Shown piece by piece: positions 9,182 to 43,482 of a stretch of DNA of 44,474 bases. This DNA is from a virus: positions 1 through 44,474 of IMG/VR virus record IMGVR_UViG_3300042691_026441. The stretch is one strand, 5' to 3'. The position numbers and the translations under genes are program-made. The first letter of the stretch is position 1; each line of letters opens with the position of its first letter. Under the pieces are notes generated by a model. The model was not told the DNA's origin. It saw only the letters and a program-made list of their open reading frames with translations, and did not search any database.

Positions 9182-9213
9182 ACCCGTAGACTTGACGATC
9201 AAGGAGCGTGCCG

Positions 9214-14213: not shown

Positions 14214-14235
14214 GGCACATCCAACGCAGTCCACG

Positions 14236-14269
14236 ACCCGGCTCGGCTACCGCCGGACCGGGTTTTTTT
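14236..14269 (+). terminator. Rho-independent terminator after the head genes
   Basis: ACCCGG (14236-14241) pairs with CCGGGT (14258-14263), with a small inner CGG/CCG stem in the loop, followed by a run of T to 14269. The next gene starts only 13 nt later, so some read-through, or a second promoter, must serve the tail genes. Confidence 0.85.
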
Positions 14270-14281
14270 CTGAGCACACCT

Positions 14282-21886: not shown

Positions 21887-22363
21887 ATGCCAGCCCGAAC
21901 AGCCCCGCAGGGCCCGAACACCCTCCCAGACATTCAGGCCGCCGTGTCGGCGATCGCGCGGATGTTCGACGATCCGATCGCGGCGGTGCGGGCGTCGTTC
22001 TCTCCTGAGGTGTCGTCGGGCGTGCGGAGGCTGACGCTCGAAGTAGTCGATCGCAACGAGGCTCGGTACGCGCCCAAGTCGTTCACCGATCTCCCTCGCC
22101 AGCGCGGCGGTCGTTGGCTGGTGGTGTGGTATCTGGCGTCGTCAGAGTTCGGGACGATGCTTTCGCCCGGCATCACCTACATCCGCGGAGCTGAGCGCGG
22201 GACGGTGGGAAGCCTGTTCATCTCGCAGACCGACGACGCCGGCTACGTGGAGGTCGAGATTACAAAGGCGGACCCGGGCGACGTGTGGGCGCACGCGCTG
22301 GCGATCGGGCCTCTACGATCGAAGGGAATCGATTGGACGACAGGCGAGGTTTACAAGGACTGA
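21887..22363 (+). CDS. Hypothetical protein, possibly made from a leaderless transcript
   Basis: A 158-residue protein, family unknown. No ribosome binding site is visible. Instead TGATAGACT, an extended -10-like element, ends 6 nt before the ATG, so transcription could start at the A of the start codon. The protein has a helical first third (IQAAVSAIARMFDDPIAAVRASF), then strands (WLVVWYLASSEF; GSLFISQTDDAGYVEVEITK), and no membrane segment. It precedes the ejection-type proteins. Confidence 0.6.
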   Translation: MPARTAPQGPNTLPDIQAAVSAIARMFDDPIAAVRASFSPEVSSGVRRLTLEVVDRNEARYAPKSFTDLPRQRGGRWLVVWYLASSEFGTMLSPGITYIRGAERGTVGSLFISQTDDAGYVEVEITKADPGDVWAHALAIGPLRSKGIDWTTGEVYKD

Positions 22364-22383
22364 CCCCGAGCAGGAGGCTCACC
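22361..22383 (+). repeat. 23-nt leader repeat, copy 2 (copy 1 at 15092-15114)
   Basis: Identical to copy 1, including the stop codon, GAGC (22368-22371), AGGAG loop and GCTC (22377-22380). Confidence 0.85.
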
Positions 22384-22384
22384 G

Positions 22385-23329
22385 ATGGACCCGATGACAC
22401 TTATGGCCTTGTCTGGATTGTTGGGTGCGGGCATCTCTTCGGCGGGCGGGTTGCTCGGGGCGAAATCCCAGAATGCGGCCGCGCGCGACGCGTTCAACTA
22501 CGACGCCAACACGCGCACGCAGTCGATGAACCGGGCGAACATGGCCATGTTCGGGTTCGATCCCTATCTGGACTCGCTCACCGCCGGCGAAGGCGGCTCG
22601 CAGCGTTCTCGGGAAGCCTCCGCGCGGTTCAACGCGAGCATCGGCGGGCCGATCCATGACCAGCTACGCATGTTTGCGCAGCAGGGCCAGGACGATCTGG
22701 CCGGCAACCTGCGCCGCTTCGACGCGCAGACGCCCCGGCTTGCCGCGTTCGGACGGGGCGCCGAAGGCATCGCGCAGGACTACGGCGCCGGGCGTGAGGC
22801 CGTGATCCGCCAAGACTTCAAAGACACGCTCGGGAGCATGAACCGTCAATCGGCGGCGAACCTGTCCGGGCTGGGCATGAACAGCTTGGTGGCGAATCAG
22901 CAGGCGGGGAACGCGTCGCGGGTGGCGAAGGGTCAGGCCGACGCGCTCACGTCGCTCGGGATGCAGAAAACCGACCGCGTTCTCGGCGCTCGGCAGGTGC
23001 AGGCGGGGCGGGAGTACGGGCGCGATTCGGAACGCACGACGCTTGGGAATCAGACCGCCGCCGGCATGGACGCCCTTCGTCGCCAGCCCCTCAACGCTGT
23101 GTTGCAGTCGTTCACCGACCCGGCGTTCAACCGGGCGGTGGGCGGGTCGAGCGCCGGGTATCTTGCCCAGGCTGGCGCGTCGCCCCTTGGGAGCCTGTTC
23201 GCCAACGCGGGCAACTCGATCTCAACCCTTGGCCCGATGCTGGCGATGATGCAGATGTTCGGTGGCGGCGGAGGAGGCGGTGGCAGCGGCGGCGCGTCGA
23301 TGTTGCCGTACGTTGGACGTGCTGGCTGA
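22385..23329 (+). CDS. Candidate internal/ejection protein 1
   Basis: A 314-residue protein. It starts with a hydrophobic glycine-rich helix (LSGLLGAGISSAGGLLGAKS) and then long Gln, Ala, Arg-rich amphipathic helices (AARDAFNYDANTRTQSMNRANMAM), ending in a Gly run of about eight residues. This build (membrane-active start, helical body, no enzyme motif) is typical of proteins stored in the head and ejected with the DNA. The gene order with the next two genes supports that. Confidence 0.65.
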   Translation: MDPMTLMALSGLLGAGISSAGGLLGAKSQNAAARDAFNYDANTRTQSMNRANMAMFGFDPYLDSLTAGEGGSQRSREASARFNASIGGPIHDQLRMFAQQGQDDLAGNLRRFDAQTPRLAAFGRGAEGIAQDYGAGREAVIRQDFKDTLGSMNRQSAANLSGLGMNSLVANQQAGNASRVAKGQADALTSLGMQKTDRVLGARQVQAGREYGRDSERTTLGNQTAAGMDALRRQPLNAVLQSFTDPAFNRAVGGSSAGYLAQAGASPLGSLFANAGNSISTLGPMLAMMQMFGGGGGGGGSGGASMLPYVGRAG

Positions 23330-23343
23330 AAAGGAATACGACC

Positions 23344-24630
23344 ATGGGCATCGTCAACTCGGGCGCATCGCAAGCGCTGGCGCAAGGTCTACAGCTTGCG
23401 CTCCAAGTTCAGCAGATGGCGCAGCAGCAGCAGGCTCAGCAGGCCCAGCAAGATCTGGCCGGTCGTCGTATGGACTTTGCCGATCGGCAGTTTTCCTACG
23501 GCGTTCAGCAGAACGAGGCCGAGGAGATGCAGCGCCGGTCGGCTGGCATGGCCGACGCCCAGCTCGCGTCATCGCTCGGCATGTTCTCGTCGCTCCCCGG
23601 CGACGGGGAACAGCAGGGGCCACCAGCGCCCGATCAGGAGCTTCTGAGTTTCTTCGCCGACGCCGATCCCGTGATCCGCCGCGGGCTGATAAACGAGCAC
23701 ATCAAAGACCAGTCGCGGGTACGGACGGAGACGGCCAACACCGGTCGCCGGGCCGAGTGGTTCAACAAGCGGGCGGCGGTGCTCGATCAGATGCTCATGG
23801 AACAGAAGCTCACCAGCGAGCAGCACGCTTGGCAGATGATGGACGCGGAGGCGGTGCGCGACAATCTCCCGCGCCCCAAGTTCATGGACGACAGCACCCA
23901 GCGCGGCGGAATGTCGGGCGGCGCCGGCGTCCCGTCGGACGAGCAGATCGCCGCGGCGCTGGCGTCGGTTGAGGACGCGCCCCAGAACGAGAAGGCCGTG
24001 CGGACGGCGGCGGCGCTCGGGGTGAAGCCGACCGCGACGATGATCAGCAGCATGTTCAGCACGGCCAAACCGCCGTCGCTCAACCAACAGCCGGCGTTCA
24101 GGATCGCGGACGAAGAAGTGAAGTTTGCGAAGCAGGTGGCGATGCAGGCAATGAGGCAGCGGGACGAAGCCCGGAATCTGTACGGGTCGTCCACGGCGCC
24201 CGAGGTTTTGGAGGCGGAGAAGGCGCTTCAGGAGGCGTTGAGCGTTCACGCAAAGGCCATGGCGCAATACCGCGCGGCGGCGGCTGGTGCGTCCCCGGTG
24301 CAGACCGGCCCGTCCATGCCGGGAAGCACGCCCCAATCACAGATGCCCCAGACCGTGTACGACATGGGCATGTCGGTTGGATCGTCGGCGGTCCCAGCCA
24401 AAACCCCATCGCAGTTCATCAACCCGGGCGACCCGGAGTACGACGCAAACAAGGTTCCTCCGCTCGGGGCATTGGTCCGGCTTGGCAGCGGGCGGGTAAC
24501 GCCCGTCACCGCCGCGTACATCGACGAGGTGCGCGGTCGGCTGGGCGCGTCTTTGTACCGTCTTCCAGAAAGTCAACGCGCCGCCGCGCTTCGTGAAGCC
24601 GTGCTCATGCAGCTCGAACGGGGCGAATAA
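23344..24630 (+). CDS. Candidate internal/ejection protein 2, Gln-rich N-terminus
   Basis: A 428-residue protein with AAAAGGAA upstream. The first 60 residues are Gln-rich and helical (LQVQQMAQQQQAQQAQQDL); the rest is long helices with a Pro/Ser linker near 320-340. No catalytic motif is seen. Gln-rich, all-helical proteins are common next to ejection genes in short-tailed phages. It could form part of an internal core or a tunnel through the cell envelope. Confidence 0.6.
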   Translation: MGIVNSGASQALAQGLQLALQVQQMAQQQQAQQAQQDLAGRRMDFADRQFSYGVQQNEAEEMQRRSAGMADAQLASSLGMFSSLPGDGEQQGPPAPDQELLSFFADADPVIRRGLINEHIKDQSRVRTETANTGRRAEWFNKRAAVLDQMLMEQKLTSEQHAWQMMDAEAVRDNLPRPKFMDDSTQRGGMSGGAGVPSDEQIAAALASVEDAPQNEKAVRTAAALGVKPTATMISSMFSTAKPPSLNQQPAFRIADEEVKFAKQVAMQAMRQRDEARNLYGSSTAPEVLEAEKALQEALSVHAKAMAQYRAAAAGASPVQTGPSMPGSTPQSQMPQTVYDMGMSVGSSAVPAKTPSQFINPGDPEYDANKVPPLGALVRLGSGRVTPVTAAYIDEVRGRLGASLYRLPESQRAAALREAVLMQLERGE

Positions 24631-24641
24631 GGAGATTCCCA

Positions 24642-25127
24642 ATGAGCAGCACGCGCATCACCCTTGCGGTCCACCACACCGCCGGCGGCCACACCACGTC
24701 ATTCGGTTCGCGGGATCACCCCAGCGAGTACGTGTCGTCGGTTGTCGGCGTCTCCAACTCCGACGTGTTCATCTGTCCATCCGGATCATTGCAGACGCTC
24801 TACCAGTATGCGGACTCGAACCCCGGGATCTCCGCGCTCGTGGTGACAGCCGACCAGGACGGAACGCTTTGGTTGCAGGGCGCCACGGCCAACGGGGCAA
24901 ACCCGACGTGGAACGCGGTGCCGATGCGGGCGAACATGCCCGCGTGCATCTCGGCGGAGTCGTTGCCGACGAACGTTGACCCGTCCGCGCACGCCACCGA
25001 CGCCGGCGGCGTCCCTTCCGGCGCGATTTCAATCAATGAGACAACGGGCGTGCTCTACAAAGCCGTCTTTCAACCCGCTAGCGCTGTCAACACCCCCACC
25101 ACCATCAAAACCTTCCGGTGCAACTGA
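24642..25127 (+). CDS. Hypothetical virion protein
   Basis: A 161-residue protein with AAGGAG before ATG 24642. It is beta-rich (RITLAVHHTAGGHTTSFG, then SALVVTADQDGTLWLQG) and ends TPTTIKTFRCN. The repeated small strands and the Asp/Gly turns suggest a compact sandwich. The stop TGA overlaps the start of the giant gene as TGATG, so the two are translationally coupled. Confidence 0.6.
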   Translation: MSSTRITLAVHHTAGGHTTSFGSRDHPSEYVSSVVGVSNSDVFICPSGSLQTLYQYADSNPGISALVVTADQDGTLWLQGATANGANPTWNAVPMRANMPACISAESLPTNVDPSAHATDAGGVPSGAISINETTGVLYKAVFQPASAVNTPTTIKTFRCN

Positions 25128-28100
25128 TGAACCCAAACGATCCATTTGAGGCGTCCGTCACGCGCGGCTCGCTCGCCGGCGTTGGAATGCCGATCGAGGC
25201 CACACCGCCCCCCGTCGCCGCGCCGGTCGATCCGTTCGAGGCCGCCGAAATGCGTTGGGTCGCTGCGCGCCCGGCGGTCGCGGGTGATCTGAAACGCCAG
25301 CGCGAGGAGCTGATGCGCCCGTCGGGGTCGCTCAAGAACGCCGACGGCACCTACGGCGCTCCGTCTATGCCCGCGCCGCCTCCGTGGTGGGGGCTGACGC
25401 CCAAGACGGGTCTCACCGCCACGAAGGTCACGAAGGAAGACGTGGACTCGAAGATGTACGGCTACACCGCCGACGACATCGGAGCGCCCGCCGAACGCGA
25501 TTCCGCCGGCGTGATCCGCCGGAAGTACAACCCGATCACGGGCGCGTGGGCGGAATGGGGAGACAAGGGTGGGTACGGGTGGCACGAAGACAATGCGATC
25601 GGGTACAGGCCCGATCTGGACCCGCGCGAGAAGGTTGGCTTCTTTGGCGAGTTGACCGACGTGGGCAAAGCGTTCTCCGCAACGTCGCTCGGTTCGGCGA
25701 TCGCGCTGCGCGGCGGACAGCCGACCCCGGAAGAGGCGGCGTATCAGGCGTTCAATGCGCCGCCCCAAACCGGACCCGGAAAGGTTGCCGCGATCGTCCG
25801 CGATTCGGCGGCGTTCGCCACCGACTTTGTGCTCACCGGGAGCGCCCAGCGGGCGCTGAGCACCCCCGCACGCGCGGCGGCGCGGTCGTTTGCGGAAAAG
25901 GTGCTGGGCGCGGGTGGACAGCTCGGCAAGGTCGGAAGGCTCACCGAGGCGGCGGCGGAGATGGGCGCGCGCGGGATTGCGGTTGCACCGACGGGCATTC
26001 CCGCCGGCATCAAGGACGCGGTTGAGATCGCGGCGGTGAGCGACGCGCCGTTCATGGAGTCGCTTTACAAGGGCATGGGTGGGCAGTTCATCGAACGGTT
26101 CAGTGAGTTCTCCGGCGGTGTCGTCGCCCGCGGAGCCGGGATGCTCGTTCCCGAGAAACTCAGGTTGCTCAAAGCCGCGATTGCGCAGAAGTGGATGAGT
26201 AAGTCGCCCGGCGTGCGGACCATCAGCAACTTCGCCGAACAGGTGGCGAAAGTCGGCGGTTGGGATGGGATCTTGGGCGAAATCGGTGAGGAGTATGTGG
26301 GCGGGGTTATGAAGGATCTTGCCCAGATCGAAGATTTCCGCGGGTTCTCAAACGAAGAGATCATGCAGATGGCGGCGGCGTTCGCCATTCCCGGCGGTGT
26401 CGTCAAGACCGCTCAGGGCGGGATGGCCGCCACCGACGCCGTGCGCGCGTTCATGCAACGCCGGGCTCAGGCCCAGGGCGCTGACGCGGCGGTGACGGGC
26501 GAGCCCGTTTTACAAACACCCCCGGGAACGGATGCGCCTTTACAGGCCGCTCCAGTCGAGCAGCAGGCTCCGGAGGTTGTGGCGGAAGTGTCGCCAGTGC
26601 CCGCGGCTGAGGTGATGCCGCACCCCACCGCCACACAGACGGCGCCCGTGCCAGCGCAACAGGCCGCACCAGTGCAGGCGGACCCCATCGCCGAACAGGC
26701 GGCGCCAGCGAAATCGAAACATCGCCCGGGTGATCGGGTCATTGTGAACACCGAGGACGGCCCCGTTCAGGCGACGGTTCGTTTTGATCCGAAAGCCGCC
26801 CCGAACGCCGTCACGGTCAAGACCGACGCCGGCGAGATCATCACCGCGAGCCTTGACGACGTGGAGGGTTGGGCGAGCACCAAAATCGACGAAGCCGAAG
26901 CTGTCGGTGTCGCAGAAAACATGCAGGCCGACGCGGCAACAGGCGAGCAGGTTGTCGCCAGTGGCGGGAACGTGATGAAGGTGGACACGTCCACGGGCGA
27001 TGCAACGCCCGTTGCCGACGTAGAGATCCGGGCGGCAAAGGAAAAGAAGGCGAAGAACAAGCGCCCGTATCAGACAGTTGACGTGCCAATCACTCCCGAG
27101 CGCGCAGCGGTCATTCGACAGGTGAAAGAGGCCGTCGGCAACCGTGAAAAGATCCAAGCGGTGTTGGGTGACAAAACCGATGCCTATTTCAAGCGAATGG
27201 CCGGGGGCGAGCAGTCGGCCAACGCGGTAATCCGGGTAATGGGGTGGGACAATGAAGCAGGTGCGCCAGCGCCCACCGCGCAATCAGCACCCGCAACGTT
27301 CAAAGAAGGCGATCGCGTACAAAAAATCGTCAATGGCAAGACCCTCACCGGGACGGTGCAAGGAGTTGATTCGGTCAACGGTGATCTCACGGTCAAAGTT
27401 GACCAGATTCTCAAGGCTGGCGGAGTGCCGATCGGTCGGATTGAGTATTGGCCAAACCGAGAAGTTCAATCCGCCGACGCCAGTTCAAAGGACGTGGGCG
27501 GAAAAGCATCCACCAGTGATTCCGCACCATCACCAACCACCGCCAACCAACCCACCGCAGTTCCGCCCGCCGCTCCCAAGCGGTCTCGGTTTTTGAAGAA
27601 CCTGACTCCGGAAGAAATGGCGTCGTTCGACGACGCAAAGGCCCGCTTCACCAAAGCCGCCGGCGGATCGACTCTGAGCGCCGGGCTCAACACCGACGCG
27701 CTCACCGCCGCGGTTCAGATGGGGTATTTGGTCGCGAAATCCGGCATCCGGTCGTTCCAGAAATGGGCGGCGGTGATGCACGAAGAGCTTGGCGACGTGG
27801 GCAAAACGTACCTGCGCGAAGCATGGGCTGCGGTGCGCGCTAACCGCGACATGCGAACGTACGCCAAATCCGGGGAAATGGTGGATTCTGAGACCGTCGC
27901 GGACATGGCCGACGAAGAGCTTGACCGCCTTATCATTCAGGGACGCGGGGAGTTGGAGAACGACGATGCAAGCCAACCCAATGACGCCGTGGCAGACGCG
28001 GGCGCTTCAGGCGCTGGAGTTCGCGAGCGAGGGCCGACAGAGCAGGCAGAGCCTCGTGAATCAGGCGATGACGCTGGGGGACGAAGCGGCGGTAATGTGG

Positions 28101-31100
28101 GCGGAGCTGGTGCATCAGGGGACGACGCCCGAACAGGCGCAGGAGCTGGTGACGGCAATGCTGATCGACGCGACCGAGAAGCGGGCAAATCCCGACGCGG
28201 ACGGCGGGCAGCAGCAGGAGATGAACGGGACGGTGGGGGAGATGCTCGCGAAACTCCCGCCCAAGAGCAGCGACAGCACGACGCCAAGGCGCTCGACACC
28301 GCCGACCATGTGATCGAGAACCCCGACACGCTGGCGATGGGCTCGCCCAAAGCCAAGTACGCGGCGAACATGAAGGCGCTGGAAACCTATCGGCGGATCC
28401 AGGCCGAAGGGCGCACGCACGCAACCCCCGAAGAGAAGCGGATCCTGTCTCAGTGGGTCGGCTGGGGCATGTTCCCCCAGGTGTTCAACCGCGACTCGGC
28501 GTGGTCCGTTGAGGCTGAGGCGTTGGCCCAGGCGTTGTCCCGCGACGAGATGTACGAGGCGAGGAACAGCACCAAGAACGCGCATTACACCAGCGCGCCG
28601 ATGGTGCAGGCCATGTACGACATGGTGCGCCGGCTCGGCTTTGAGGCTGGGCGGGTTCTCGAACCGTCGATGGGGATCGGAAACTTCTTTGGGCTGATGC
28701 CGGCGGACATGGCCGCCAAGTCCAAGCGCGTGGGTATCGAGCTTGAGCCCATCACCGGCGGCATGGCCAAGCTGATCTACCCGGCGTCGGTCGTGCGTGT
28801 GGCCGGCTTTCAGGACGTTCGCCTTCCGCCGGATTTCTTCGATCTGGTCATCGGCAACGTCCCGTTCTCGTCCACCACGATCTACGACCCCGAGTACAAA
28901 TCCCTCACGCTCAACACCCACGATTACTTCATCGTGCGGTCGCTGGACAAGGTTCGCCAGGGCGGGCTTGTGGCGCTCATCACCAGCACGGGCACGCTCG
29001 ACAAGGCCGGCGCTCAGGGCTCCCGCGCGCGCGAAGCGATGGCAAACCGCGCGTCTTTGGTTGCCGCGTTCCGACTCCCGGGCGGTGCATTTGAGGCCAA
29101 CGCCGGCACGCAGGTTGTGACGGATCTGCTGATCTTCCAGAAACACACGTGGGTGAACGGGGCTCGGAAGGAGAACCCGCACGCGCAGGCGTTCCAAGAG
29201 GTCGTGACGGTTCCGGACCCGGACGGTGGCGAACCGATCCCGGTGAACGAGTATTTCAAGGCCCACCCCGAGCACATCATCGGGCGGCTCGACCGCACCG
29301 GGACCATGTACCGTGCGGGGTCAAAGAACGTCTCCGTCACGGGCGATTGGCGTGAAATGCTCGCCGAGCAGGTGAAGAAGTTGCCAGCGGGGATTGCCGC
29401 CAAGGAAGCCCAGCCCGACGTGGATGTTGAGGGCGCCATGGTTGAAGACCGTGCGGGCAAGGAGGGCGGGTTGTCCGTTGACGACGGAAAGCTTTTCCGT
29501 CGGGTGAACGGGGCCATGGTTCGCGTGCAGGCAGACAAGCCGACCATCGATCGCGTGAAGGCCCTGCTGACGGTGCGGGACGCGGCACGCGAGTTGGTGC
29601 AGGCCGAAGCCCGAGACGCCGACGTGGCGGTGCTGGACGATCTCCGGCAGAAGCTCAACCGCGCGTACGACCGGGCCACGAGCAAGCACGGCAAGCTGCG
29701 CAGCCGCCCAATGCTCCGGGCGATCGCCGATGACCCGGACGCGATGTTTGTCGCGTCGCTCGAAACCGACACCATGGAGAAGGCGGCGATCTTCACCAAG
29801 CGGACCATCCGCGGGACGAAGATCCCCGAATCGGTCGGTTCAGCCGTCGATGCCATGGTCGTTTCGTTGAACGAGAAGGGATCGGTAGATATCCCGTTCA
29901 TGGTGGGGCTGACCAAAACCACCGCCGCCAAGGTGGAAGAAGAGTTGCGGGCATCGGGCCAGGCGTTTGAAGACCCTTCGGAGGGCTGGCAATCCCGCGA
30001 GCGGTATCTTTCGGGCAACGTTCGGGCGAAGCTCGTGCAGGCGGAGGCCGCCGCGGCGATCGATGAACGGTACATGCGCAACGTGGAGGCGTTGAAGGCG
30101 GTTCAGCCACCGGACAAGACCGCCGATCAGATCGATGTTCAGCTTGGATCGGCGTGGGTTCCCCCCGACACGTACGCGGAGTTTTATGCCGGCGCCCTTG
30201 GTGGTTCGCCGGATCACGTTATGGTGTCGTTCAAGCCGTCCACGGGCAGTTTCCTGTTCCAGTTCACCCCGCGCGGGGAGCGGCTTGCGCGGTCACAAAC
30301 CGCAAAACTGCTGTCAACCGACCGGGTTGAGTTTGCCAAGATTGCCGAAGCGGGCATGAACCGTCAGACCATCAAGGTGTTCGACAAGATGGCCGACGGC
30401 TCCTCGGTTCTCAACACCATCGCCACGGGCGAAGCGGCTGGCAAGGTGCAGGAGCTACGCGAGAAGTTCACCGATTGGGTGTGGAACGACGACACCCGCC
30501 GGCAACGGCTCACGCGCATCTACAACGACCAGTTCAACTCAGTCGCTCCACCGTCCGCCGACGGGTCGAATCTGACGCTCCCGGGCATGTCCCCCGAAGT
30601 GACATTGCGCGACCATCAGAAGAACGCCGTGCGGCGGATCATCAACGAACGGCGTGCTGGGCTTTTCCACGAGGTCGGGACGGGCAAGACGTACACGATG
30701 ATCGCGGCGGCGATGGAGGTTCGCCGGCTGGGTATCGCTAAGAAGCCGACCATCACGTGTTTGCTTTCCACCGCCCCGGACTTTGTTCGAGACATCTACC
30801 ACCTGTACCCGGGTGCGAGACTGCTGAATGTGGCCGCCGCCACTGATGCCGACTCCCGGCGAAGGCTGATCGCGCAGGCCGCCACCGGCGATTACGACTT
30901 GATCCTGATGACCCACGAGCAGATCGGCGGGATCACGTGCTCCCCCGAAACCGAGGTGGAGTACATCCAAGACCAGATCGAGGAAGCTGAGGCCGCGATC
31001 GAGCAGGCCCGGCAGGCCGACCGCGCCGCCGGGTTGTCGAAGTCTTCCGATTCGCGGTTCGTCAAACAGCTCGCCAAGCGGCTCGACCAGTTACGTGAGC

Positions 31101-34100
31101 GCGGGCGTGAGCTGCTGGACAAGAAGGCAATCAAAGCGGACGACCAGATTTATTTCGAGGACACCGGGATCGATTTTCTCTTCATCGACGAAGCCCAGGC
31201 GTTCAAGAACCTGCCGGTTCAATCGGCCCTGAACGTGAAGGGGATTGCGCGCAGCGACACCGGACGCGCGGCGGACATGATGATGAAGATCCGCCACATC
31301 GGCAAGCTCCAGAAGGGCCGTGGCGTCGTGCCGGCGACGGGCACGCCGATTTCAAACACCATCGGCGAAACCTTTGTGATGATGAAGATGATGGCCGAGG
31401 CCGATCTTCACGCGCGGAACATCGGTGCCTTCGACGCGTGGGTGTCCACGTTCGGGCACATCTCCGATCAGGTCGAGTACACCATCGATCTCCGACAGGC
31501 TCCGACGCAGCGACTGCGCGACTTTGTGAACATCGGCGAGTTGCAAACCCTGTTCCGTGACACGGCGGACGTGGTGTTTGCTGATGACATCGGGCTCAAG
31601 CGGCCAAAGAAGGTCAACTACGTTGAAACGATCGAGATGACGCCCGATCAGGAGGACTACCGCGAGCAGCTCCGGGCTCTGGCCGCCGAAATCCGGGCGC
31701 GAAGGGGTCCGCCCAAGAAGGGTGATCTCCCGATTACGATCGTCGGCCAGCGGGGCGCCGCATCGTCGATCGATATGCGGCTGGTCGATCCGACCGCCGA
31801 CGCCGAATCCGGGTCGAAGATTCCCTATCTGGTGGCGAACATCCGGAAGTATCTCGACGCCCACCCGGGCACAACGCAGATGATTTTTACGGAGGTGCGC
31901 ACGCTCGAATCCCTGAACCCGGCGTTCAATCTGGTGGACGAGATTGTGAACCAGCTTGAAAAGGCTGGCGTGCCCCGGGACAAGATCATCGACTTCTCAA
32001 ACCTGACGAAGACCGAGCGGCGGGATGCCGCGCGACGGCTGAACAACGGGGACGCGTGGATCGGCATCGGGTCTACCAAAACCCTTGGCACGGGCGTGAA
32101 CGCGCAGAAGAACCTGATTGCCTTGCACCATCTCGACGTGACGTACACGCCGGCAGAGATGGAACAGCGGGAAGGCCGCGGGTACCGCCAGGGCAACATG
32201 AACCCCACCGGTGAGATCAACATTCATCGGTATGTGACCACGGGGTCGTTTGACGTGTTCCGATGGGGCATCGTGGACCGGAAGTACCGCTTCATCCAGC
32301 GGTTCATGCGCGGGCAATCCGTCGCCGGCACGATGAGGGAGGAAGACGGCGAGGATCTGACGCCCGAGCAGGTGGCGGCGATGGCCACGGGGGATCCGAA
32401 GCAGCTTGAGCTGCTGAACGTTGCGTATGAGGTCGAGAAGCTGGAAACCCAGCGCCGGCGTGCCGCGATGGACGCGGCCCGGGTTCGAGATTCCATCGGC
32501 TCGCTCGAAAAGACCATCACGCATCTTGAAAGCCAGTTGGCCGCCACGGAAGCCGAGCGCGTTGAGCTGGCCGAGTTCACCGCCAAGCCGTTCGAGGTCA
32601 AGATCGGCTCGACGCTCGCGACGACTTCCGAGCAGGTGTACGCCGCCGTCAACGCCGCGTTCCCGCTCGCCAACTACACCGACACCGGCAAAGAGATCGG
32701 TTCGATGCACGGGCTCCGTGTGCGGCTGGGCTTGGTTGCCAGCGGCGATGTGGTCAACCTGACAATCGACGGCCCGAAGGGGGTCGGATACTCGGTGTCG
32801 CTGCGCACCACGTCGGTGGAGATGAACGACGGCAAGATGGTGAAGACCGTCCATCCGAACATGCAGGCGTCACTTCGAGCCGTCATGGGAACGGCCGCGC
32901 TCGAACGGGCGGTTGAGACGACCAAGGCAACGCTCGAATCCGCACGCGCCGACTTGGCCAAGGCCAAGACCATGGTGTCGTCCGGGTTCAAGCGGGATGC
33001 CGAGCTTGAGGAGAAGCGAGCCCGCCGCGAAGTGCTCCGTAAGGAGGTCGAGGCGAATCAGGCCGCCGACGACGCTCGACGCGCGGAACAGAAGCAGGCC
33101 CGGGATCTGCTGTGGTCGATGGATGATGCCGAGTTCGCAAAGCTCGCCAGCGAGCGCGGTGTCATGCAGGAGAAGACAACCCGCAACGTGGGTCGGCTGT
33201 TGAGGGCGATCGGTCAATCCGAGGTGATCCGCATGTTCGCGGATCAGATCGCCAAAGCCAAGGCGGCGCAGGAGTTCAAGGAGGCTACAGACCCGACCAA
33301 GTTGTCGGCGGGGCTCAACGCCGACGCCGCGATCGCTGCGGCCAAGTTCGCGTTCTATTGGGCGAAGCCCCACGTGCGGCGCGCCGCCGCGATGGCGTAC
33401 GCCGCCGGCAAAGCGCTTGTGAACATCCCTCGGGCGGCAAAGCTGATGATGCTGAGCCTGACCGGGAAGATCCGCAACGAGGACGGCTCGGTCGCGGTCG
33501 ATCTGGCGGGGATGTACGGCGACGCCGCCGGCAAGGCTCTGCCCCGCATCACCGCTATGGACGCGGCATCGAGCGAGGCCGGCGTTCGGTACGTCAGCGC
33601 CCCGGACGCGGCGGTGTTGCAGGGCGACGTGTACGCCGACTCGGTGATCGGGGATCACACACCCGAAGACGTGGAGCTTGCGGGCGCGGTTCTGACCGAG
33701 GACAACCTTCGCTCGGTGCGCAAGCAGCACGAGGCCATGGCGGCGGAATACACCGCGCGGGGAGAGCAGGAAGCCGCCGACGCCGCCGCCGAATCCGCCA
33801 AGGCGGTCTATTCGCTTGTGGGCGACGGTCGGTATTTCGAGACCGAGGAGGAATATCAGGCCGCGCTCAGGCATCCCGGTGTGGTGGACATCATCAACCG
33901 GTTCATCGACTCATTCTCGCCCGTGATGGACGAGCTCTACAAGAAGGCCAGCGGGATCCCGCTTGACGACGATCTTCCCTCGCGCGGGGAGCAGACCGGT
34001 TGCCGGATCAACCTGAAAGCCAACCGCCCCGAGCAGACCGCCAAGCCGATCGGGATGGCCAACGACCAGACGCGTCCGTTCGTGCGGAAAAGCTCGTTCA

Positions 34101-35860
34101 ACCGCCGGGCGACGGGTGCGGCGAGCCTTGGCTACGACATCGATCTCCGCGAGATCATCAAGAACAGCGTGGTGAAGCAGTTGGAGATCGCCACTCAGCG
34201 AGAGTGGTACGCCACCATGGAGGCGGCGGGCATCGCCAAGATCGCCCCGATGGGCTCGGAGGTGATGCTGCGCGGGGTAGTGGTTCCGCCCGGGTCCGCC
34301 GTGGACATTCAGTACCGGACGCTGGTGATCTCTAAGAACGGGGAGGCCAAAGTCATCCCCCAGAACAACCGGCTGTACCTGCATCCGGCGATTGCCGGCG
34401 AAGTGAAGGCGGCGCTCCGGAAACAGATCGTGGACGTGCGGGGCGCAAAGAGCGTGCTCGTGGGGGCGATCGAGGCGGCGAACATGGCCGCGCTGGTCGG
34501 GCCGGCGGACGCGACGACGCACGCAATGAACGTCGCCACCGTGCTGTTCACGAGGCCCGGCGTTGGACGAGGGCCGATGGGGCGGACGTTGCACATGCTC
34601 GGGGGCGTGCCGGCGATTCTGGCGGCGCTCGATCAACTTCTCGCCAAGGGCATGAAACACTGGTTCGGCAACCGCGAAACCAAACAGCGACACGCGTATC
34701 TCGTGTCGATCGGTGCCATGCGGGTGGAAGCGCACGACAACCCCAGCGAGCGCGAGGGCCTGTGGGCGAAGGTGCTCGACAAGGTGCTCAACATGGGTTG
34801 GTTGCAGCGTCGGCTGGACCCGGTAGCCCGGCTGGTGCTCGACGACGCGTTCACCGAGTTGGTGAAGAAAGGCTTGGTGATCGACTCTGAGACCAACCGA
34901 CGCGAGTTTATCAACCAAGTGGGCCAGTACAACAAGCGGTTGCAATGGATGCTCCCCCGCATCCTGCGAGAGACGGGCGTTGCCCCGTTCATCACCGCCG
35001 GCAAGACGATGCGGAATCTGGCGATCCGGAATCTGGCGATGGCCCCGGGCGCAACCGCCACGAGCCAACTCGCCGCCGCAAAGCTCCGGTTGTCGATCGT
35101 GTCCAGGTGGGTGGGCACCCTTGGCAGCATCGCCATGCTCAACGTGATGCTTGCCGCGCCCGACGACGACCGGCCCGTCTGGGAGAAGGCGGTTGGCCCC
35201 AAGGGCGCAGCACCGGGAACGGTCATGCTCTACACCGATGAGCGCGGTCGCCCCGTCACGATCGATCTTTTGGAGTTGGTGGGCTACCGGCGTGCCGCGC
35301 GAACCGTGGGGCTCGATCAGGCGATCAAGAGCTACATGTTCGGTCTTTCGCCCGGCCAGACCTTTGACCGGGCCGCGAATCAGGCGATCACGTCGGCGAT
35401 CGTGCATCCGATCTCCGGGCCCCCGATCCGCGCCGGGCTCGCCATGCTGTACGGCATCGACCCGTCCGGGTACCCGGTTGCCGCCAAGGCCCGGCCCGGG
35501 GAATCGCAGGTGTGGGAAAATCTCAAGGCAGCGCTCGTGCAGTCGAACCAAGCTACCAAGATCATCTTCTCGGAGGGCGGGAGCGACGTGTCCGTGTTCG
35601 AGGCCGCCGCACAGAACCTTGTGCCCAGGCTTGTGCCAAAGACCGGGCGGACGGAACGGCAAACCGACACTCTTGCCAAGCGACTCACCGCGTTTCAGGT
35701 CAACGAGTTTGCGGACGATCTGGCGAGCAGGCTCAAGAAACTCCCGCGTGAGGATCGGGTGGCGGCGCTGAACAAGGCGCTCGAAGGCATGGACCTCATG
35801 CACGCTGCTAAAGTACGGCGCATCGTGATGTTCAAGAAGCGTGTGATGGCCGCGGAATAG
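25127..35860 (+). CDS. Giant polyvalent protein: N6-adenine methyltransferase + SNF2-like helicase + virion-type segments
   Basis: A 3,577-residue protein; ATG 25127 overlaps the previous stop. Residues 1-450 are virion-like, with DPFEA at 5 and 35. Residues 450-532 are Pro/Ala/Gln-rich. Small beta (SH3/KOW-like) segments lie near 532 and 726. About 850 starts LSAGLNTDA, a helical module also found at 2726. Residues 947-1062 are low-complexity and overprinted. The methyltransferase spans about 1150-1350: motif I EPSMGIGNFFG near 1179, motif IV VIGNVPF near 1242. The helicase has GTGKT near 1851, FIDEAQAF near 2019, ATGTPISNT near 2070, QREGRGYRQGN near 2347. Coiled coil 2435-2720, then a long C-terminal region. 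It resembles DarB of phage P1 and other polyvalent proteins, injected to block restriction. Being next to ejection genes fits injection. Confidence 0.9.
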   Translation: MNPNDPFEASVTRGSLAGVGMPIEATPPPVAAPVDPFEAAEMRWVAARPAVAGDLKRQREELMRPSGSLKNADGTYGAPSMPAPPPWWGLTPKTGLTATKVTKEDVDSKMYGYTADDIGAPAERDSAGVIRRKYNPITGAWAEWGDKGGYGWHEDNAIGYRPDLDPREKVGFFGELTDVGKAFSATSLGSAIALRGGQPTPEEAAYQAFNAPPQTGPGKVAAIVRDSAAFATDFVLTGSAQRALSTPARAAARSFAEKVLGAGGQLGKVGRLTEAAAEMGARGIAVAPTGIPAGIKDAVEIAAVSDAPFMESLYKGMGGQFIERFSEFSGGVVARGAGMLVPEKLRLLKAAIAQKWMSKSPGVRTISNFAEQVAKVGGWDGILGEIGEEYVGGVMKDLAQIEDFRGFSNEEIMQMAAAFAIPGGVVKTAQGGMAATDAVRAFMQRRAQAQGADAAVTGEPVLQTPPGTDAPLQAAPVEQQAPEVVAEVSPVPAAEVMPHPTATQTAPVPAQQAAPVQADPIAEQAAPAKSKHRPGDRVIVNTEDGPVQATVRFDPKAAPNAVTVKTDAGEIITASLDDVEGWASTKIDEAEAVGVAENMQADAATGEQVVASGGNVMKVDTSTGDATPVADVEIRAAKEKKAKNKRPYQTVDVPITPERAAVIRQVKEAVGNREKIQAVLGDKTDAYFKRMAGGEQSANAVIRVMGWDNEAGAPAPTAQSAPATFKEGDRVQKIVNGKTLTGTVQGVDSVNGDLTVKVDQILKAGGVPIGRIEYWPNREVQSADASSKDVGGKASTSDSAPSPTTANQPTAVPPAAPKRSRFLKNLTPEEMASFDDAKARFTKAAGGSTLSAGLNTDALTAAVQMGYLVAKSGIRSFQKWAAVMHEELGDVGKTYLREAWAAVRANRDMRTYAKSGEMVDSETVADMADEELDRLIIQGRGELENDDASQPNDAVADAGASGAGVRERGPTEQAEPRESGDDAGGRSGGNVGGAGASGDDARTGAGAGDGNADRRDREAGKSRRGRRAAAGDERDGGGDARETPAQEQRQHDAKALDTADHVIENPDTLAMGSPKAKYAANMKALETYRRIQAEGRTHATPEEKRILSQWVGWGMFPQVFNRDSAWSVEAEALAQALSRDEMYEARNSTKNAHYTSAPMVQAMYDMVRRLGFEAGRVLEPSMGIGNFFGLMPADMAAKSKRVGIELEPITGGMAKLIYPASVVRVAGFQDVRLPPDFFDLVIGNVPFSSTTIYDPEYKSLTLNTHDYFIVRSLDKVRQGGLVALITSTGTLDKAGAQGSRAREAMANRASLVAAFRLPGGAFEANAGTQVVTDLLIFQKHTWVNGARKENPHAQAFQEVVTVPDPDGGEPIPVNEYFKAHPEHIIGRLDRTGTMYRAGSKNVSVTGDWREMLAEQVKKLPAGIAAKEAQPDVDVEGAMVEDRAGKEGGLSVDDGKLFRRVNGAMVRVQADKPTIDRVKALLTVRDAARELVQAEARDADVAVLDDLRQKLNRAYDRATSKHGKLRSRPMLRAIADDPDAMFVASLETDTMEKAAIFTKRTIRGTKIPESVGSAVDAMVVSLNEKGSVDIPFMVGLTKTTAAKVEEELRASGQAFEDPSEGWQSRERYLSGNVRAKLVQAEAAAAIDERYMRNVEALKAVQPPDKTADQIDVQLGSAWVPPDTYAEFYAGALGGSPDHVMVSFKPSTGSFLFQFTPRGERLARSQTAKLLSTDRVEFAKIAEAGMNRQTIKVFDKMADGSSVLNTIATGEAAGKVQELREKFTDWVWNDDTRRQRLTRIYNDQFNSVAPPSADGSNLTLPGMSPEVTLRDHQKNAVRRIINERRAGLFHEVGTGKTYTMIAAAMEVRRLGIAKKPTITCLLSTAPDFVRDIYHLYPGARLLNVAAATDADSRRRLIAQAATGDYDLILMTHEQIGGITCSPETEVEYIQDQIEEAEAAIEQARQADRAAGLSKSSDSRFVKQLAKRLDQLRERGRELLDKKAIKADDQIYFEDTGIDFLFIDEAQAFKNLPVQSALNVKGIARSDTGRAADMMMKIRHIGKLQKGRGVVPATGTPISNTIGETFVMMKMMAEADLHARNIGAFDAWVSTFGHISDQVEYTIDLRQAPTQRLRDFVNIGELQTLFRDTADVVFADDIGLKRPKKVNYVETIEMTPDQEDYREQLRALAAEIRARRGPPKKGDLPITIVGQRGAASSIDMRLVDPTADAESGSKIPYLVANIRKYLDAHPGTTQMIFTEVRTLESLNPAFNLVDEIVNQLEKAGVPRDKIIDFSNLTKTERRDAARRLNNGDAWIGIGSTKTLGTGVNAQKNLIALHHLDVTYTPAEMEQREGRGYRQGNMNPTGEINIHRYVTTGSFDVFRWGIVDRKYRFIQRFMRGQSVAGTMREEDGEDLTPEQVAAMATGDPKQLELLNVAYEVEKLETQRRRAAMDAARVRDSIGSLEKTITHLESQLAATEAERVELAEFTAKPFEVKIGSTLATTSEQVYAAVNAAFPLANYTDTGKEIGSMHGLRVRLGLVASGDVVNLTIDGPKGVGYSVSLRTTSVEMNDGKMVKTVHPNMQASLRAVMGTAALERAVETTKATLESARADLAKAKTMVSSGFKRDAELEEKRARREVLRKEVEANQAADDARRAEQKQARDLLWSMDDAEFAKLASERGVMQEKTTRNVGRLLRAIGQSEVIRMFADQIAKAKAAQEFKEATDPTKLSAGLNADAAIAAAKFAFYWAKPHVRRAAAMAYAAGKALVNIPRAAKLMMLSLTGKIRNEDGSVAVDLAGMYGDAAGKALPRITAMDAASSEAGVRYVSAPDAAVLQGDVYADSVIGDHTPEDVELAGAVLTEDNLRSVRKQHEAMAAEYTARGEQEAADAAAESAKAVYSLVGDGRYFETEEEYQAALRHPGVVDIINRFIDSFSPVMDELYKKASGIPLDDDLPSRGEQTGCRINLKANRPEQTAKPIGMANDQTRPFVRKSSFNRRATGAASLGYDIDLREIIKNSVVKQLEIATQREWYATMEAAGIAKIAPMGSEVMLRGVVVPPGSAVDIQYRTLVISKNGEAKVIPQNNRLYLHPAIAGEVKAALRKQIVDVRGAKSVLVGAIEAANMAALVGPADATTHAMNVATVLFTRPGVGRGPMGRTLHMLGGVPAILAALDQLLAKGMKHWFGNRETKQRHAYLVSIGAMRVEAHDNPSEREGLWAKVLDKVLNMGWLQRRLDPVARLVLDDAFTELVKKGLVIDSETNRREFINQVGQYNKRLQWMLPRILRETGVAPFITAGKTMRNLAIRNLAMAPGATATSQLAAAKLRLSIVSRWVGTLGSIAMLNVMLAAPDDDRPVWEKAVGPKGAAPGTVMLYTDERGRPVTIDLLELVGYRRAARTVGLDQAIKSYMFGLSPGQTFDRAANQAITSAIVHPISGPPIRAGLAMLYGIDPSGYPVAAKARPGESQVWENLKAALVQSNQATKIIFSEGGSDVSVFEAAAQNLVPRLVPKTGRTERQTDTLAKRLTAFQVNEFADDLASRLKKLPREDRVAALNKALEGMDLMHAAKVRRIVMFKKRVMAAE
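27966..28313 (+). CDS. Overprinted gene inside the giant gene (+1 frame), helical protein
   Basis: A 115-residue frame lying wholly within the giant gene, shifted by +1. GGAG at 27955-27958 stands 7 nt before ATG 27966, an ideal ribosome binding site. The protein reads as a compact helical protein: MTPWQTRALQALEFASEG, then LGDEAAVMWAELVHQ, then TPEQAQELVTAMLIDA, then a polar tail. By my hand count about 87% of its third codon positions are G or C, as in the other genes here, whereas the giant frame over the same bases has about 47% and encodes a monotonous Gly, Ala, Asp, Arg stretch. So the selected frame here is the short one. It could be a structural or regulatory partner of the giant protein; no family is recognised. 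Confidence 0.7.
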   Translation: MQANPMTPWQTRALQALEFASEGRQSRQSLVNQAMTLGDEAAVMWAELVHQGTTPEQAQELVTAMLIDATEKRANPDADGGQQQEMNGTVGEMLAKLPPKSSDSTTPRRSTPPTM

Positions 35861-36893: not shown

Positions 36894-37829
36894 ATGGCGT
36901 TGACAGCGAAACAGTTGGAAGACCGCAAGGCGTGGCTTGGCGCGTCGGACATGGCGGCGGTGCTGGGGCTCGATCCCTACCGCACGCCCTACGAGGTGTG
37001 GGCCGATAAAACGGGGCGGGCGCCCGCGCGGGAAGGGGGCGAGCGGGCAAAGTACGGCACGATGATCGAGCCCGTGTTGCGGGCGTGGGCGTCGGCGAAG
37101 CTCGAACGCCCCGTGGTGGCGTCCACGAGCACGTTCCGCCACATGTCGGTTCCGTGCATGGCGGTCAACCCCGACGGGTTTGTCGGCAAGTGCCAGCGCG
37201 GCAATCCGTTGGTGGAGTGCAAACGCACGTCGCTCGCGCAGGAGTGGGGCGAGCCGGGCACGGATCAGGTTCCCTATCGGACCATCGTTCAGGTACAAAC
37301 CCAGATGGCCTGCACCGCTTCGCCGCACGTTCACGTCGTGGCGGACATTGCCGATCGGTTCCATGAAGGTCCGGAAATGTACATCGTGCATCGCGACAAC
37401 GAGATGATCGCGATGATTGAGGAGCGGGCGGTCGAGTTCTGGAATCTCATCGCGAACGACACGCCGCCGGAAGACGGGCCGGTCCCGCCGGTGGAGTTCA
37501 TCGCCAAGGTGCGCCGCGACACCGTGGATCCCGCCCAGGTTGATGACGCGATCATCGCCGAGTATCAAGCCGCCAACGAGCGCCGCAAGAAAGCGGAGAA
37601 GGAGGAGGAGGAGATCAAGGCCCGCCTCCTGCTCAAGCTCGGCACGTCCGAGATCGGCGAGTCCGAGATGCACATCGTGAAGTACGTGATGGAGAACGCC
37701 GGATCGAATACCGACATGGCCGCGATTCGGCAGAACCACCCCGAGCAGTTTGAGGCGTGGCAGCAGCTCATCGATCGGTATCAGGTCAAGCGGACCCGTC
37801 GCGTTCTCCGCATCAAGGCCCGCAAATGA
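36894..37829 (+). CDS. YqaJ-type viral recombinase exonuclease
   Basis: A 311-residue protein, first gene after P2, with AAGGGG 6 nt before the ATG. It begins with KAWLGASDMAAVLGLDPYRTPYEVWADKTG, the hallmark of the YqaJ exonuclease family, and shows the PD-(D/E)xK core: Glu59 (GTMIEP), Asp94 (NPDGF), Glu108-Lys110 (ECK), then VQVQTQM. Such enzymes chew one strand from DNA ends, giving 3' overhangs for the annealase RecT, encoded three genes downstream. A coiled basic/acidic section (KKAEKEEEEIKARLLLKL) follows the nuclease domain and may contact the partner. The length is normal. Confidence 0.9.
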   Translation: MALTAKQLEDRKAWLGASDMAAVLGLDPYRTPYEVWADKTGRAPAREGGERAKYGTMIEPVLRAWASAKLERPVVASTSTFRHMSVPCMAVNPDGFVGKCQRGNPLVECKRTSLAQEWGEPGTDQVPYRTIVQVQTQMACTASPHVHVVADIADRFHEGPEMYIVHRDNEMIAMIEERAVEFWNLIANDTPPEDGPVPPVEFIAKVRRDTVDPAQVDDAIIAEYQAANERRKKAEKEEEEIKARLLLKLGTSEIGESEMHIVKYVMENAGSNTDMAAIRQNHPEQFEAWQQLIDRYQVKRTRRVLRIKARK

Positions 37830-38086: not shown

Positions 38087-38487
38087 TGACCGCCTTTGGA
38101 CCCAACTCGCTCTTCGGGCAGTCGAACCCGCCGGCACCGTCGGCGGGCGAGACCCCGCACCCGGGGAACCACGGTCACGAGTTCCTTGGGCCCGACCGGT
38201 GCAAGTCGTGCGGAGCTCCGATCCTGTGGGGCACGAACCTCGCCACCGGCAAGTCCATCCCGCTGGACGCGCACCCGATCGCCACGGCGTTCGTCGTCAC
38301 CGAGGCCGGGGAGAAACAGCCGTTCTGTGAAATCCGTCGAGCCTTCCGCAGTCACTTCGTCTCATGTCCGAACCGAGATCAGCACCGAACCAAGGGGAAT
38401 CACCATGACCAATCAGGCATTGAAAGACCAACCATCAACTCCGCAGCCGGCCAAGCAGCCTCAGCCGAACCCAACCCGCCGCGTTGA
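38086..38487 (+). CDS. Zinc-ribbon-like early protein
   Basis: A 133-residue protein. CKSCGAPILWGTNLATGKSIPLDA at about residues 43-66 and a later SHFVSCPN give the CxxC...C pattern of a small phage protein type (C-x-x-C, tryptophan, GKxxPLD, then SHxxxCP) seen next to recombination genes. The function is unknown; DNA or single-strand binding is possible. The last 25 residues overlap the RecT gene in another frame (83 nt) and are Asn, Gln, Ala-rich. Confidence 0.65.
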   Translation: MTAFGPNSLFGQSNPPAPSAGETPHPGNHGHEFLGPDRCKSCGAPILWGTNLATGKSIPLDAHPIATAFVVTEAGEKQPFCEIRRAFRSHFVSCPNRDQHRTKGNHHDQSGIERPTINSAAGQAASAEPNPPR

Positions 38488-39478
38488 CCCGGAGCGGGCG
38501 ATGACGCCCAACGAGCTCAACGAGGCGGTGCTGGCGCTCAACAAGATCTTCTCTAACCCGGGCCGCATGGAGCGTCTGAAAGACGTGGAGACCGAGTTCG
38601 TCTCCGCCGAGCGCGCGGTGCGTGTGGCGATGGCCGCGATCTCGCGGAATCCTCAGCTCGTCCAGGCTGCGCGGATGAGCCCCCTGAGCTTCTTCGAGGC
38701 CGTCATGGGGGGTATCGAGATGGGCCTTGAGCCGGGCGGGCGGGCGGGCTTGGCGTATCTGGTCCCGCGGCGGAACAAGAAGACCGGGCGCACCGAGATC
38801 ACGTTGCTGGTGGGATACCGCGGGCTCATGTCGATCGTCCGCCGTTCCACCGAGATCGGCGCGATCGAGGCGGACGTGGTGTACCCCACCGACATCTTCT
38901 CGTTCGAGCGTGGATCGGCCCGCGGGCTGCGACACGTGCCCAACTTGGACATTCCGCGGGACGCGCCGGGCGATTTCCGGTTGGCGTACGCCGCCGCGTA
39001 CACCCGGGCCGGTCAACTCATCGACGCGGCGATCATGACCCGGGAGCAGATTGACCAGATCCGCAAGCGGTCGGAGGCCGGGGAATCGGCGTTCTCGCCG
39101 TGGAACAGCAAGTTCGGCGGGGATCAGCTTGAGATGTGCAAGAAGACCGCGCTCCGCCGGCTGTGCAAAATGCTCCCCCTTGAGCCCGTTATCGCCACCC
39201 AGGTTGGGACCGCGGACAAGTTCGACCCGATTGGGGAGACGTTCGCCACCGCCGCCGCACCCGCTGCGGAGGCCCGCCAGACCCCCGCAAGCCGAACGGA
39301 GGCGGTCAAGGAGGCGATTGCACGCTCGGGGGGTGCTCAGACCCCACCAGCCCCCGCCCCCGAGCCTGAGCCCGAGGAAGAGCCTCAGGTCAACCCAGAG
39401 GACGAGGAGCTTGTTCGGGAGCTGGACGATCTGATCGCGCAAGGAAACACCCGCACCGCTTCTCAGGGGAAACCATGA
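38405..39478 (+). CDS. recT: RecT-family single-strand annealing protein
   Basis: A 357-residue protein. AAGGGG is 7 nt before ATG 38405; the open frame upstream to 38096 runs over the zinc-ribbon gene. Residues of about 91-150 (SPLSFFEAVMGGIEMGLEPG, then AYLVP, then VGYRGLMSIVRRS, then VVYPTD) are the classic RecT core. It binds single-stranded DNA and anneals it to complementary strands, working with the exonuclease at 36894. The last 100 residues are a Pro, Glu, Ala-rich acidic tail (PAPEPEPEEEPQV), longer than in most RecT proteins, that could contact SSB or other partners. Confidence 0.92.
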   Translation: MTNQALKDQPSTPQPAKQPQPNPTRRVDPERAMTPNELNEAVLALNKIFSNPGRMERLKDVETEFVSAERAVRVAMAAISRNPQLVQAARMSPLSFFEAVMGGIEMGLEPGGRAGLAYLVPRRNKKTGRTEITLLVGYRGLMSIVRRSTEIGAIEADVVYPTDIFSFERGSARGLRHVPNLDIPRDAPGDFRLAYAAAYTRAGQLIDAAIMTREQIDQIRKRSEAGESAFSPWNSKFGGDQLEMCKKTALRRLCKMLPLEPVIATQVGTADKFDPIGETFATAAAPAAEARQTPASRTEAVKEAIARSGGAQTPPAPAPEPEPEEEPQVNPEDEELVRELDDLIAQGNTRTASQGKP

Positions 39479-43150: not shown

Positions 43151-43482
43151 GCAAGCACACACCAGAGCCGTGGATCAGCGGCGACGAGCATTCAGACGAT
43201 CGCCCAACATTGTGGGATGACGAAGGGTGCTGCGTTGCAGAGTTCAACCGGTTCATGGGCGCGAAGCGAGCAATCGCAAACCGTGATCGCGCCATGGCCT
43301 GCGTGAACGCGTGCAAAGGGATCGACCCGGAAGCGGTGCCTTATCTACTGGCCGCGTGCAAGGCGGCCCTTGCCGATCGCTTCGGGTCTGATGATCCGTG
43401 CGTTGATCTTGACCCAATCACCAATCAACTCCGCGACGCCATCGCGAAGGCCGAAGGAGAGAACACCAATGCGAAGGCATGA
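43147..43482 (+). CDS. Small conserved-type phage protein (HTPEPW start)
   Basis: A 111-residue protein from GTG 43147, overlapping the previous stop as GTGA. It begins SKHTPEPWISG, a start pattern shared by many small phage proteins; further on NRDRAMACVNACKGID and NQLRDAIAKAEG are also typical of that group. Their function is unknown. Three Cys residues in the middle are not arranged as a clear metal site. Confidence 0.75.
   Translation: MSKHTPEPWISGDEHSDDRPTLWDDEGCCVAEFNRFMGAKRAIANRDRAMACVNACKGIDPEAVPYLLAACKAALADRFGSDDPCVDLDPITNQLRDAIAKAEGENTNAKA

Follow-up and report, generated by a model that had tools for sequence, protein, structure and literature searches.

In this study, we analysed a 44,474-nucleotide stretch of viral DNA, hereafter the window (positions 1 to 44,474 of the IMG/VR virus record IMGVR_UViG_3300042691_026441), and found one giant gene on the forward strand at 25127-35860 (+). 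Its sequence supports the reading that it encodes a DarB-like polyvalent protein, in which a methyltransferase is combined with an SNF2 helicase. We consider it probable that this is a DarB-like protein of a short-tailed phage that is packed, ejected unfolded together with the DNA, and protects that DNA against restriction. The observations behind this reading are the open frame, the homology of both enzyme halves to P1 DarB, the intact catalytic motifs, the position of the gene and its depletion of cysteine.

The frame runs for 3,577 codons without a stop and occupies 10,734 of the 44,474 bases (24% of the record), in agreement with the first-pass annotation of this DNA, which had described a 3,577-residue protein taking a quarter of the window. 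An alternative GTG at 25118, three codons upstream of the ATG at 25127, would give 3,580 residues. The ATG overlaps the preceding gene (24642-25127) by one base, its A being also the last base of the TGA stop, and we saw no Shine-Dalgarno sequence ahead of it. This overlap and the missing Shine-Dalgarno sequence make a translationally coupled start at 25127 plausible. The GC3 of the giant (0.80) falls within the range of 15 other window genes (0.71-0.89), indicating that it is coding along its whole length. No transmembrane segment was found in the giant, as no 19-residue window exceeded 1.6.

To define the enzyme core, we compared the giant with profiles and with P1 DarB. A profile search matched PHROG 10089 ("DarB-like antirestriction") to residues 939-2695 with 1,363.9 bits, and the comparison of the whole protein with P1 DarB gave an E value of 1e-50. 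The adenine-type methyltransferase core was assigned to residues 1153-1342 (28583-29152, +) from the P1 DarB alignment (residues 1153-1340, 31.6% identity, E 1e-25), from motif counts and from a weak Pfam Eco57I match. The SNF2-type helicase/translocase was assigned to residues 1777-2487 (30455-32587, +), where P1 DarB aligns in two stretches, 1777-2177 and 2314-2487, with 24% and 27% identity (E 2e-16 and 2e-12). Methyltransferase and helicase follow each other in the same order as in P1 DarB. Pfam on the whole giant placed ResIII above the cut-off and Helicase_C just below it, with Eco57I weaker and LPD14 (E 0.04) below the cut-off. The methyltransferase and SNF2-like helicase that had first been read from motifs are supported by the PHROG profile and by the homology to P1 DarB.

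All motifs quoted in that reading are present: EPSMGIGNFFG from residue 1179, VIGNVPF (GNVPF from 1243), GTGKT at 1851, FIDEAQ (DEAQ from 2021) and QREGRGYRQGN at 2347. The methyltransferase has HYT from residue 1153, motif I LEPSMGIGNFFG from residue 1178 and motif IV NVPF from residue 1244, and SF2/SNF2 motifs I, II, III, V and VI of the helicase are intact (GTGKT, DEAQ, ATGTPISN, GTGVNAQ and QREGRGYRQGN). In an alignment of 166 relatives, the motif IV N and the Walker A GxGK[TS] are each found in 166/166, the motif II DE in 164 and the motif VI QR..R..R in 159. The wording of motif IV is most often NVPF (104), as in the giant, followed by NPPF (50). Ahead of the methyltransferase, residues 1111-1116 (VGWGMF; 28457-28474, +) form a GWG motif, a putative LPD36 signature by our alignment and the description in PMC5512222. 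This GWG or GxGU-type motif is described there as preceding the methyltransferase in polyvalent proteins, and a dyad of methyltransferase fused to a SWI2/SNF2 ATPase after such a motif is described in injected polyvalent proteins (PMC5512222). The giant shares the fusion, preceded by a putative motif of this type whose fourth residue is M (GWGM) where 152/166 relatives read GxG[GAS]. It differs in its N- and C-terminal regions, in which no named LPD domain reached the threshold. Following the published family analysis (PMC5512222), the methyltransferase is supported as the N6-adenine type.

P1 DarB is a virion protein, and its first 30 residues direct a reporter to the capsid (PMC9024508). P1 DarB (2,255 aa) carries both enzymes in the order common to the giant, but it is 1,300 residues shorter, has other ends and 9 cysteines, comes from a contractile-tailed phage and has five Dar partners. 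In P1, DarA, Hdf, DdrA, DdrB and Ulx help DarB into the head. When the window frames of at least 50 aa were searched by phmmer for these five, no homologue was found at E 0.01, and for this reason we do not file the window as a P1-type Dar system.

We propose that the giant would be produced late and enter the capsid, from which it would pass unfolded down the tail together with the DNA, being the final and largest member of the ejected set. Once in the cytoplasm, it would refold on the DNA as this arrives. Its SNF2 motor would then move along the duplex and present the DNA to the adenine methyltransferase, or shield the DNA, and type I-like restriction enzymes would thereby be kept from cutting. 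We infer that the giant methylates the phage's own DNA and protects it. It is unlikely that the giant, although ejected, is a passive shield that coats or occludes the DNA or blocks the restriction enzyme, with methylation playing no protective part. Such a role would agree with the protection by P1 Dar, described as acting only in cis and explained in a 2025 restriction review by a hypothesis of physical obstruction (PMC12707154), and with the ~40 DarB copies reported per P1 virion (PMC9024508). However, a coat needs neither enzyme, and the methyltransferase and helicase motifs are all kept, including the invariant motif IV N.

Giants that join a methyltransferase to a helicase are already published for Bcep22-like phages. 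These phages are described as carrying "massive" DarB-like genes, and the gene of JC1 closes the virion module and takes up 22% of the genome (PMC9144972); further giants are reported for Parlo (3,764 aa) and Atu_ph08 (4,877 aa). As in BcepIL02, BcepMigl, JC1 (gp69), Parlo, PEp14 and Atu_ph08, we found a single giant gene with the methyltransferase followed by the SNF2 helicase and nearly or fully free of cysteine. The identity to Bcep22-like giants is ~33% over 77-90% of residues 925-2700, among the matches listed. Five of six named Bcep22-like and related loci encode 3,640-4,985 aa, and the sixth, Dfl-JY45, 2,214 aa. The giant therefore adds a member to an already described DarB-like family.

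To see how frequent and how large such proteins are, we searched 50,697 phage records by tblastn with residues 925-2700, and found matches in 114, every one below 60% identity; 25 of them span at least 80% of the query. Pattern scans confirmed at least 437 relatives among 600 candidates in viral contigs and 447 of 460 candidates in genome contigs; from each set, we retained the 80 best. Among these, closed viral frames range from 1,918 to 6,469 aa with a median of 4,386 aa (n=64), whereas closed frames of the bacterial genomes are compact (median 1,776 aa, n=63). A size of 3,577 aa is thus ordinary for a viral relative. The first-pass annotation had taken size as a special sign, and this part of its argument is ruled out by the 64 closed viral frames. 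In the tree of the core, the window groups with L010 and L071 (L-numbers, L002-L169, denote loci of relatives) with an SH-aLRT of 100, and the frames of these two nearest core relatives are just 2,384 and 2,352 aa. L064 and L003 are one contig, and L064 was left out of counts made after the size comparison.

We then examined the genes around the giant. The terminase large subunit is encoded at 7256-9181 (+; Pfam/PHROG), a putative SU10-like portal at 9208-11010 (+; Pfam PF23899, E 5e-6, below the cut-off) and a putative major head protein at 12457-13536 (+; weak match to phrog_9953, E 3e-7). Upstream of the terminase, 4800-6914 encodes a 704-aa protein with 15 cysteines and no Pfam, PHROG or NCBIfam match. 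The 697-aa product of 19781-21874 (+), which from its sequence we take to be tail nozzle-like, is a homologue of the 884-aa protein of L046 (phmmer E 3e-20; hhalign 98%, beating shuffles), and the L046 gene likewise stands ahead of a DarB-like giant.

Genes of 158, 314, 428 and 161 aa lie between the 697-aa gene and the giant. By position, the 314-aa Gly/Ala-rich product (22385-23329, +), with a hydrophobic N-terminus by reading, is a candidate small ejection protein, and the 428-aa Gln/Ala-rich product (23344-24630, +) is a candidate ejection protein of periplasmic-tunnel-like type; neither has a cysteine. A comparable order is seen in L046 (204 + 476 aa) and L002 (288 + 421 aa), where a smaller and then a larger gene come immediately ahead of the giant. 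The 161-aa gene (24642-25127, +; 3 cysteines), which overlaps the giant start, has no family match in Pfam or PHROG. It separates the giant from the putative ejection genes, and L046 and L002 have no gene at this place. Downstream, the giant is followed by a gene of 126 aa whose product, by reading, is hydrophobic in an N-terminal stretch. A little further on lie genes for a RecE/YqaJ-like exonuclease and a RecT-like annealing protein (36894-37829 and 38306-39478), and 43370-43966 encodes an endonuclease/Holliday-junction-resolvase-like protein (phrog_93, E 2e-10).

The genes beside the giant had been called ejection genes in the first-pass annotation. Gene order and the lack of cysteine argue for this name, but neither Pfam nor PHROG matched an ejection family among the neighbours. 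Comparisons of 22385-23329 and 23344-24630 by hhalign with genes of the same or a nearby position in L002, L046, JC1 and VvAW1 scored no better than shuffles, and the giant itself had no sequence match to known ejection proteins. The precedent comes from JC1, where gp69 (4,515 aa, DarB-like) was reported in CsCl-purified virions with 51 unique peptides, and gp67 and gp68, encoded by the two genes preceding it, were likewise detected in virions (PMC9144972). N4 gp50 offers an analogy: it is similar in size (3,500 aa), free of cysteine, and adjoins two cysteine-free ejection genes, gp51 and gp52. It differs in being a polymerase rather than a methyltransferase-helicase, and we claim no homology for this likeness. 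Transcription by this N4 virion RNA polymerase (vRNAP) is described as pulling the DNA in (PMC3715699). The earlier comparison of the giant with the N4 polymerase, but with modification functions, holds as an analogy; the combination itself was already published in the Bcep22-like DarB-like giants.

The giant has 3 cysteines in 3,577 residues (at 1878, 1938 and 2959), compared with 57 in 5,766 residues of 15 other window genes, so that ~35 would be expected (Fisher p 2e-9). The comparison genes are a chosen set with start codons as called, without 14120-15094, the 161-aa gene and three upstream genes. The three genes at 21887-24630 before the giant (158, 314 and 428 aa) have no cysteine in 900 residues. 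N4-type virion polymerases are described as lacking cysteine (PMC3715699, PMC3915230, PMC2784036, PMC4837373), and the first three of these papers tie the missing cysteine to passage via the tail, through the periplasm or into the cell. As controls, we counted cysteines in proteins known to be ejected and found 0/3,500 in N4 vRNAP gp50, 0/2,065 in T7 gp15+gp16 and 0/1,309 in P22 gp7+gp20+gp16, with 2/2,448 in the T7 ejected set. Other genes of the control phages have 0.68-1.19% cysteine; these are chosen larger genes, and the N4 ejection proteins gp51 and gp52 were counted among them, against the contrast. Against cysteine content as a mark of ejection, further late virion genes may lack cysteine too: 11402-12385 of the window has none in 327 residues, and the T7 gp9 scaffold none in 307. 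Near-absence of cysteine is no formal definition of an ejected-protein family. P1 DarB is mildly cysteine-poor (9/2,255), and the P1 Dar set has 13/4,359 compared with 30/3,138 in other P1 genes.

The same depletion was found when the homologous core was compared between viruses and genomes. For this comparison, 165 cores were reduced to 81 representatives at less than 70% identity (58 viral, 23 genome), with cores of 1,100 aa or less dropped, the first name of each cluster as its representative and mixed clusters counted as viral. The median cysteine content is 0.0% in the 58 viral representatives; among those from genomes it is 0.50% for the 13 compact and 0.83% for the 10 longer ones (viral versus compact, p 2e-7; p 2e-6 with GC >55% only). 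No viral-versus-genome gap such as that for cysteine was seen for W, H, M, F, Y or N. At most 3 cysteines are found in 39/47 viral DarB-like giants of at least 2,700 aa (71 in 202,479 residues) and in 3/23 genome homologues, and the JC1 giant read from stop to stop has 0/4,529. A tree-aware contrast was not significant: of 9 independent pairs, ~3.2 went the expected way, 0.0 the opposite way and 5.8 were equal (median p 0.25). With only ~3 of 9 contrasts informative, significance was out of reach, though the direction was on average as expected. L046, a relative of the giant's N-terminus, is an exception with 9 cysteines in 3,546 residues. Five of 11 compact viral frames (L054, L048, L059, L076 and L009) have 14-17 cysteines, compatible with another route of delivery or with frames wrongly called viral; these frames may be non-injected or not viral.

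Packaging and ejection of the giant, as the first-pass annotation had suggested, are supported by inference from the JC1 precedent, from its gene order next to two cysteine-free genes and from a cysteine content as low as that of the N4 polymerase, while the argument from size fell away. It is quite unlikely that the giant stays in the producing cell as a late cytoplasmic methyltransferase-helicase, modifying progeny DNA before packaging or aiding packaging. The homologues in bacterial genomes are compact and need no virion, and the nearest core relatives have just ~2,370 aa, as such a role would allow; against it stand the cysteine depletion, the position with tail and ejection-like genes, and JC1 gp69 in virions. 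The giant is most likely injected with the DNA. We consider it very improbable that the SNF2 motor mainly serves genome entry, pulling the DNA in as the transcribing N4 virion polymerase does and methylating it incidentally. The giant does hold the place of the last and largest ejection protein, like T7 gp16 and N4 gp50 by gene order, and its motor motifs are intact, but P1 DarB mutants are known as restriction-sensitive rather than entry-defective, and SNF2 proteins are not known to pull phage genomes.

The ends of the giant had been described as virion-like, and this description found no support. Polyvalent proteins with the methylase-helicase dyad usually, though not always, have further LPD or enzyme domains at their ends, but Pfam at E 0.001 gave no family in the first 700 or the last 700 residues of the giant, and no lytic transglycosylase or peptidase was found in the first 700. 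Structure prediction of the ends, proposed with that description as a check, gave unusable AlphaFold2 models: residues 1-480 (3 sequences) reached a pLDDT of 34.5, and residues 2700-3577 (single sequence), mostly helical at low confidence, a pLDDT of 38.1. The first 480 residues had no match in phages. Within the N-terminal region, residues 111-473 (25457-26545, +) are remotely like the N-termini of the giants of L003 (blastp E 2.5e-6) and L046 (phmmer E 5e-10 for the N-terminus). A short domain at residues 850-906 (LSAGLN...; 27674-27844, +) resembles a segment that directly precedes the methyltransferase in giants of the JC1-type cluster (hhalign E 0.002 alone; blastp to several giants E 1e-5 to 1e-3). 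The pattern LSAGLN[TA]DA occurs twice, in this domain and at residues 2726-2760 (33302-33406), flanking the enzyme core; the second copy, from residue 2726, is partial and was found by pattern. DPFEA is repeated at residues 5 and 35; as a candidate capsid-targeting motif it was set aside, with a related pattern in the first 150 residues of 2/35 other giants.

For the C-terminal region (residues 2726-3577; 33302-35857, +), we found no relative: residues 2725-3577 matched nothing in phages, plasmids, 21 related-virus records or the 15,701 reading frames from the loci that we retrieved, and residues 3025-3577 matched no viral contig by peptide patterns. By eye, its order of helix, hydrophobic helix, DDD and hairpin recalls the C-termini of JC1 and VvAW1. 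We set this likeness aside as unproven: the hhalign comparison reached E 0.011 with a probability of 4%, and the last 517 residues scored no higher than shuffles.

Some giants have N-terminal enzymes or a C-terminal LPD38, whereas in this one we could recognise neither a lytic enzyme at the N-terminus nor LPD38, which Pfam found in the last 700 residues of 10/35 giants. In the first 700 residues of 37 giants (this one and L046 included), Pfam found ddrB-ParB in 3, RelA_SpoT in 3, SLT in 2, a cell-wall hydrolase in 2 and others, and none here. At the N-termini of DarB-like giants, anti-CBASS Acb1 occurs in 2/37, a 2'-5' RNA ligase-like domain in 2/37 and RelA_SpoT in 3/37. Since anti-defence domains are found there, further anti-defence enzymes may ride on the DarB-like giant as a carrier. 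L046 lies on another branch of the ten-row tree group of the window and L003 further off. As the N-terminus is like those of L046 and L003 and the core is nearest to L010 and L071, the ends of the giant are mosaic.

A wider reading, which we regard as speculative and improbable, is that exclusion of cysteine generally marks the proteins which travel through a phage tail and can be read from sequence, that DarB-like giants hold the third and largest podophage ejection place (that of T7 gp16 and N4 gp50), and that the ATP-driven SNF2 motor both draws in the genome and methylates it on entry, coupling entry with protection. In the literature searched, we found no published statement of cysteine loss in DarB-like or ejection proteins generally, and we make no claim of priority. 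Taken together, the giant brings an established family into a phage for whose right-hand 24,874 bases megablast found no near relative among 50,697 phage records. The matched comparison, in which one enzyme core has almost no cysteine when it belongs to a viral giant, unlike its cellular homologues, is possibly of wider use. Since the N4 literature explains the missing cysteine by passage through the tail and periplasm, cysteine content may serve as a cheap predictor of injected giant phage proteins.
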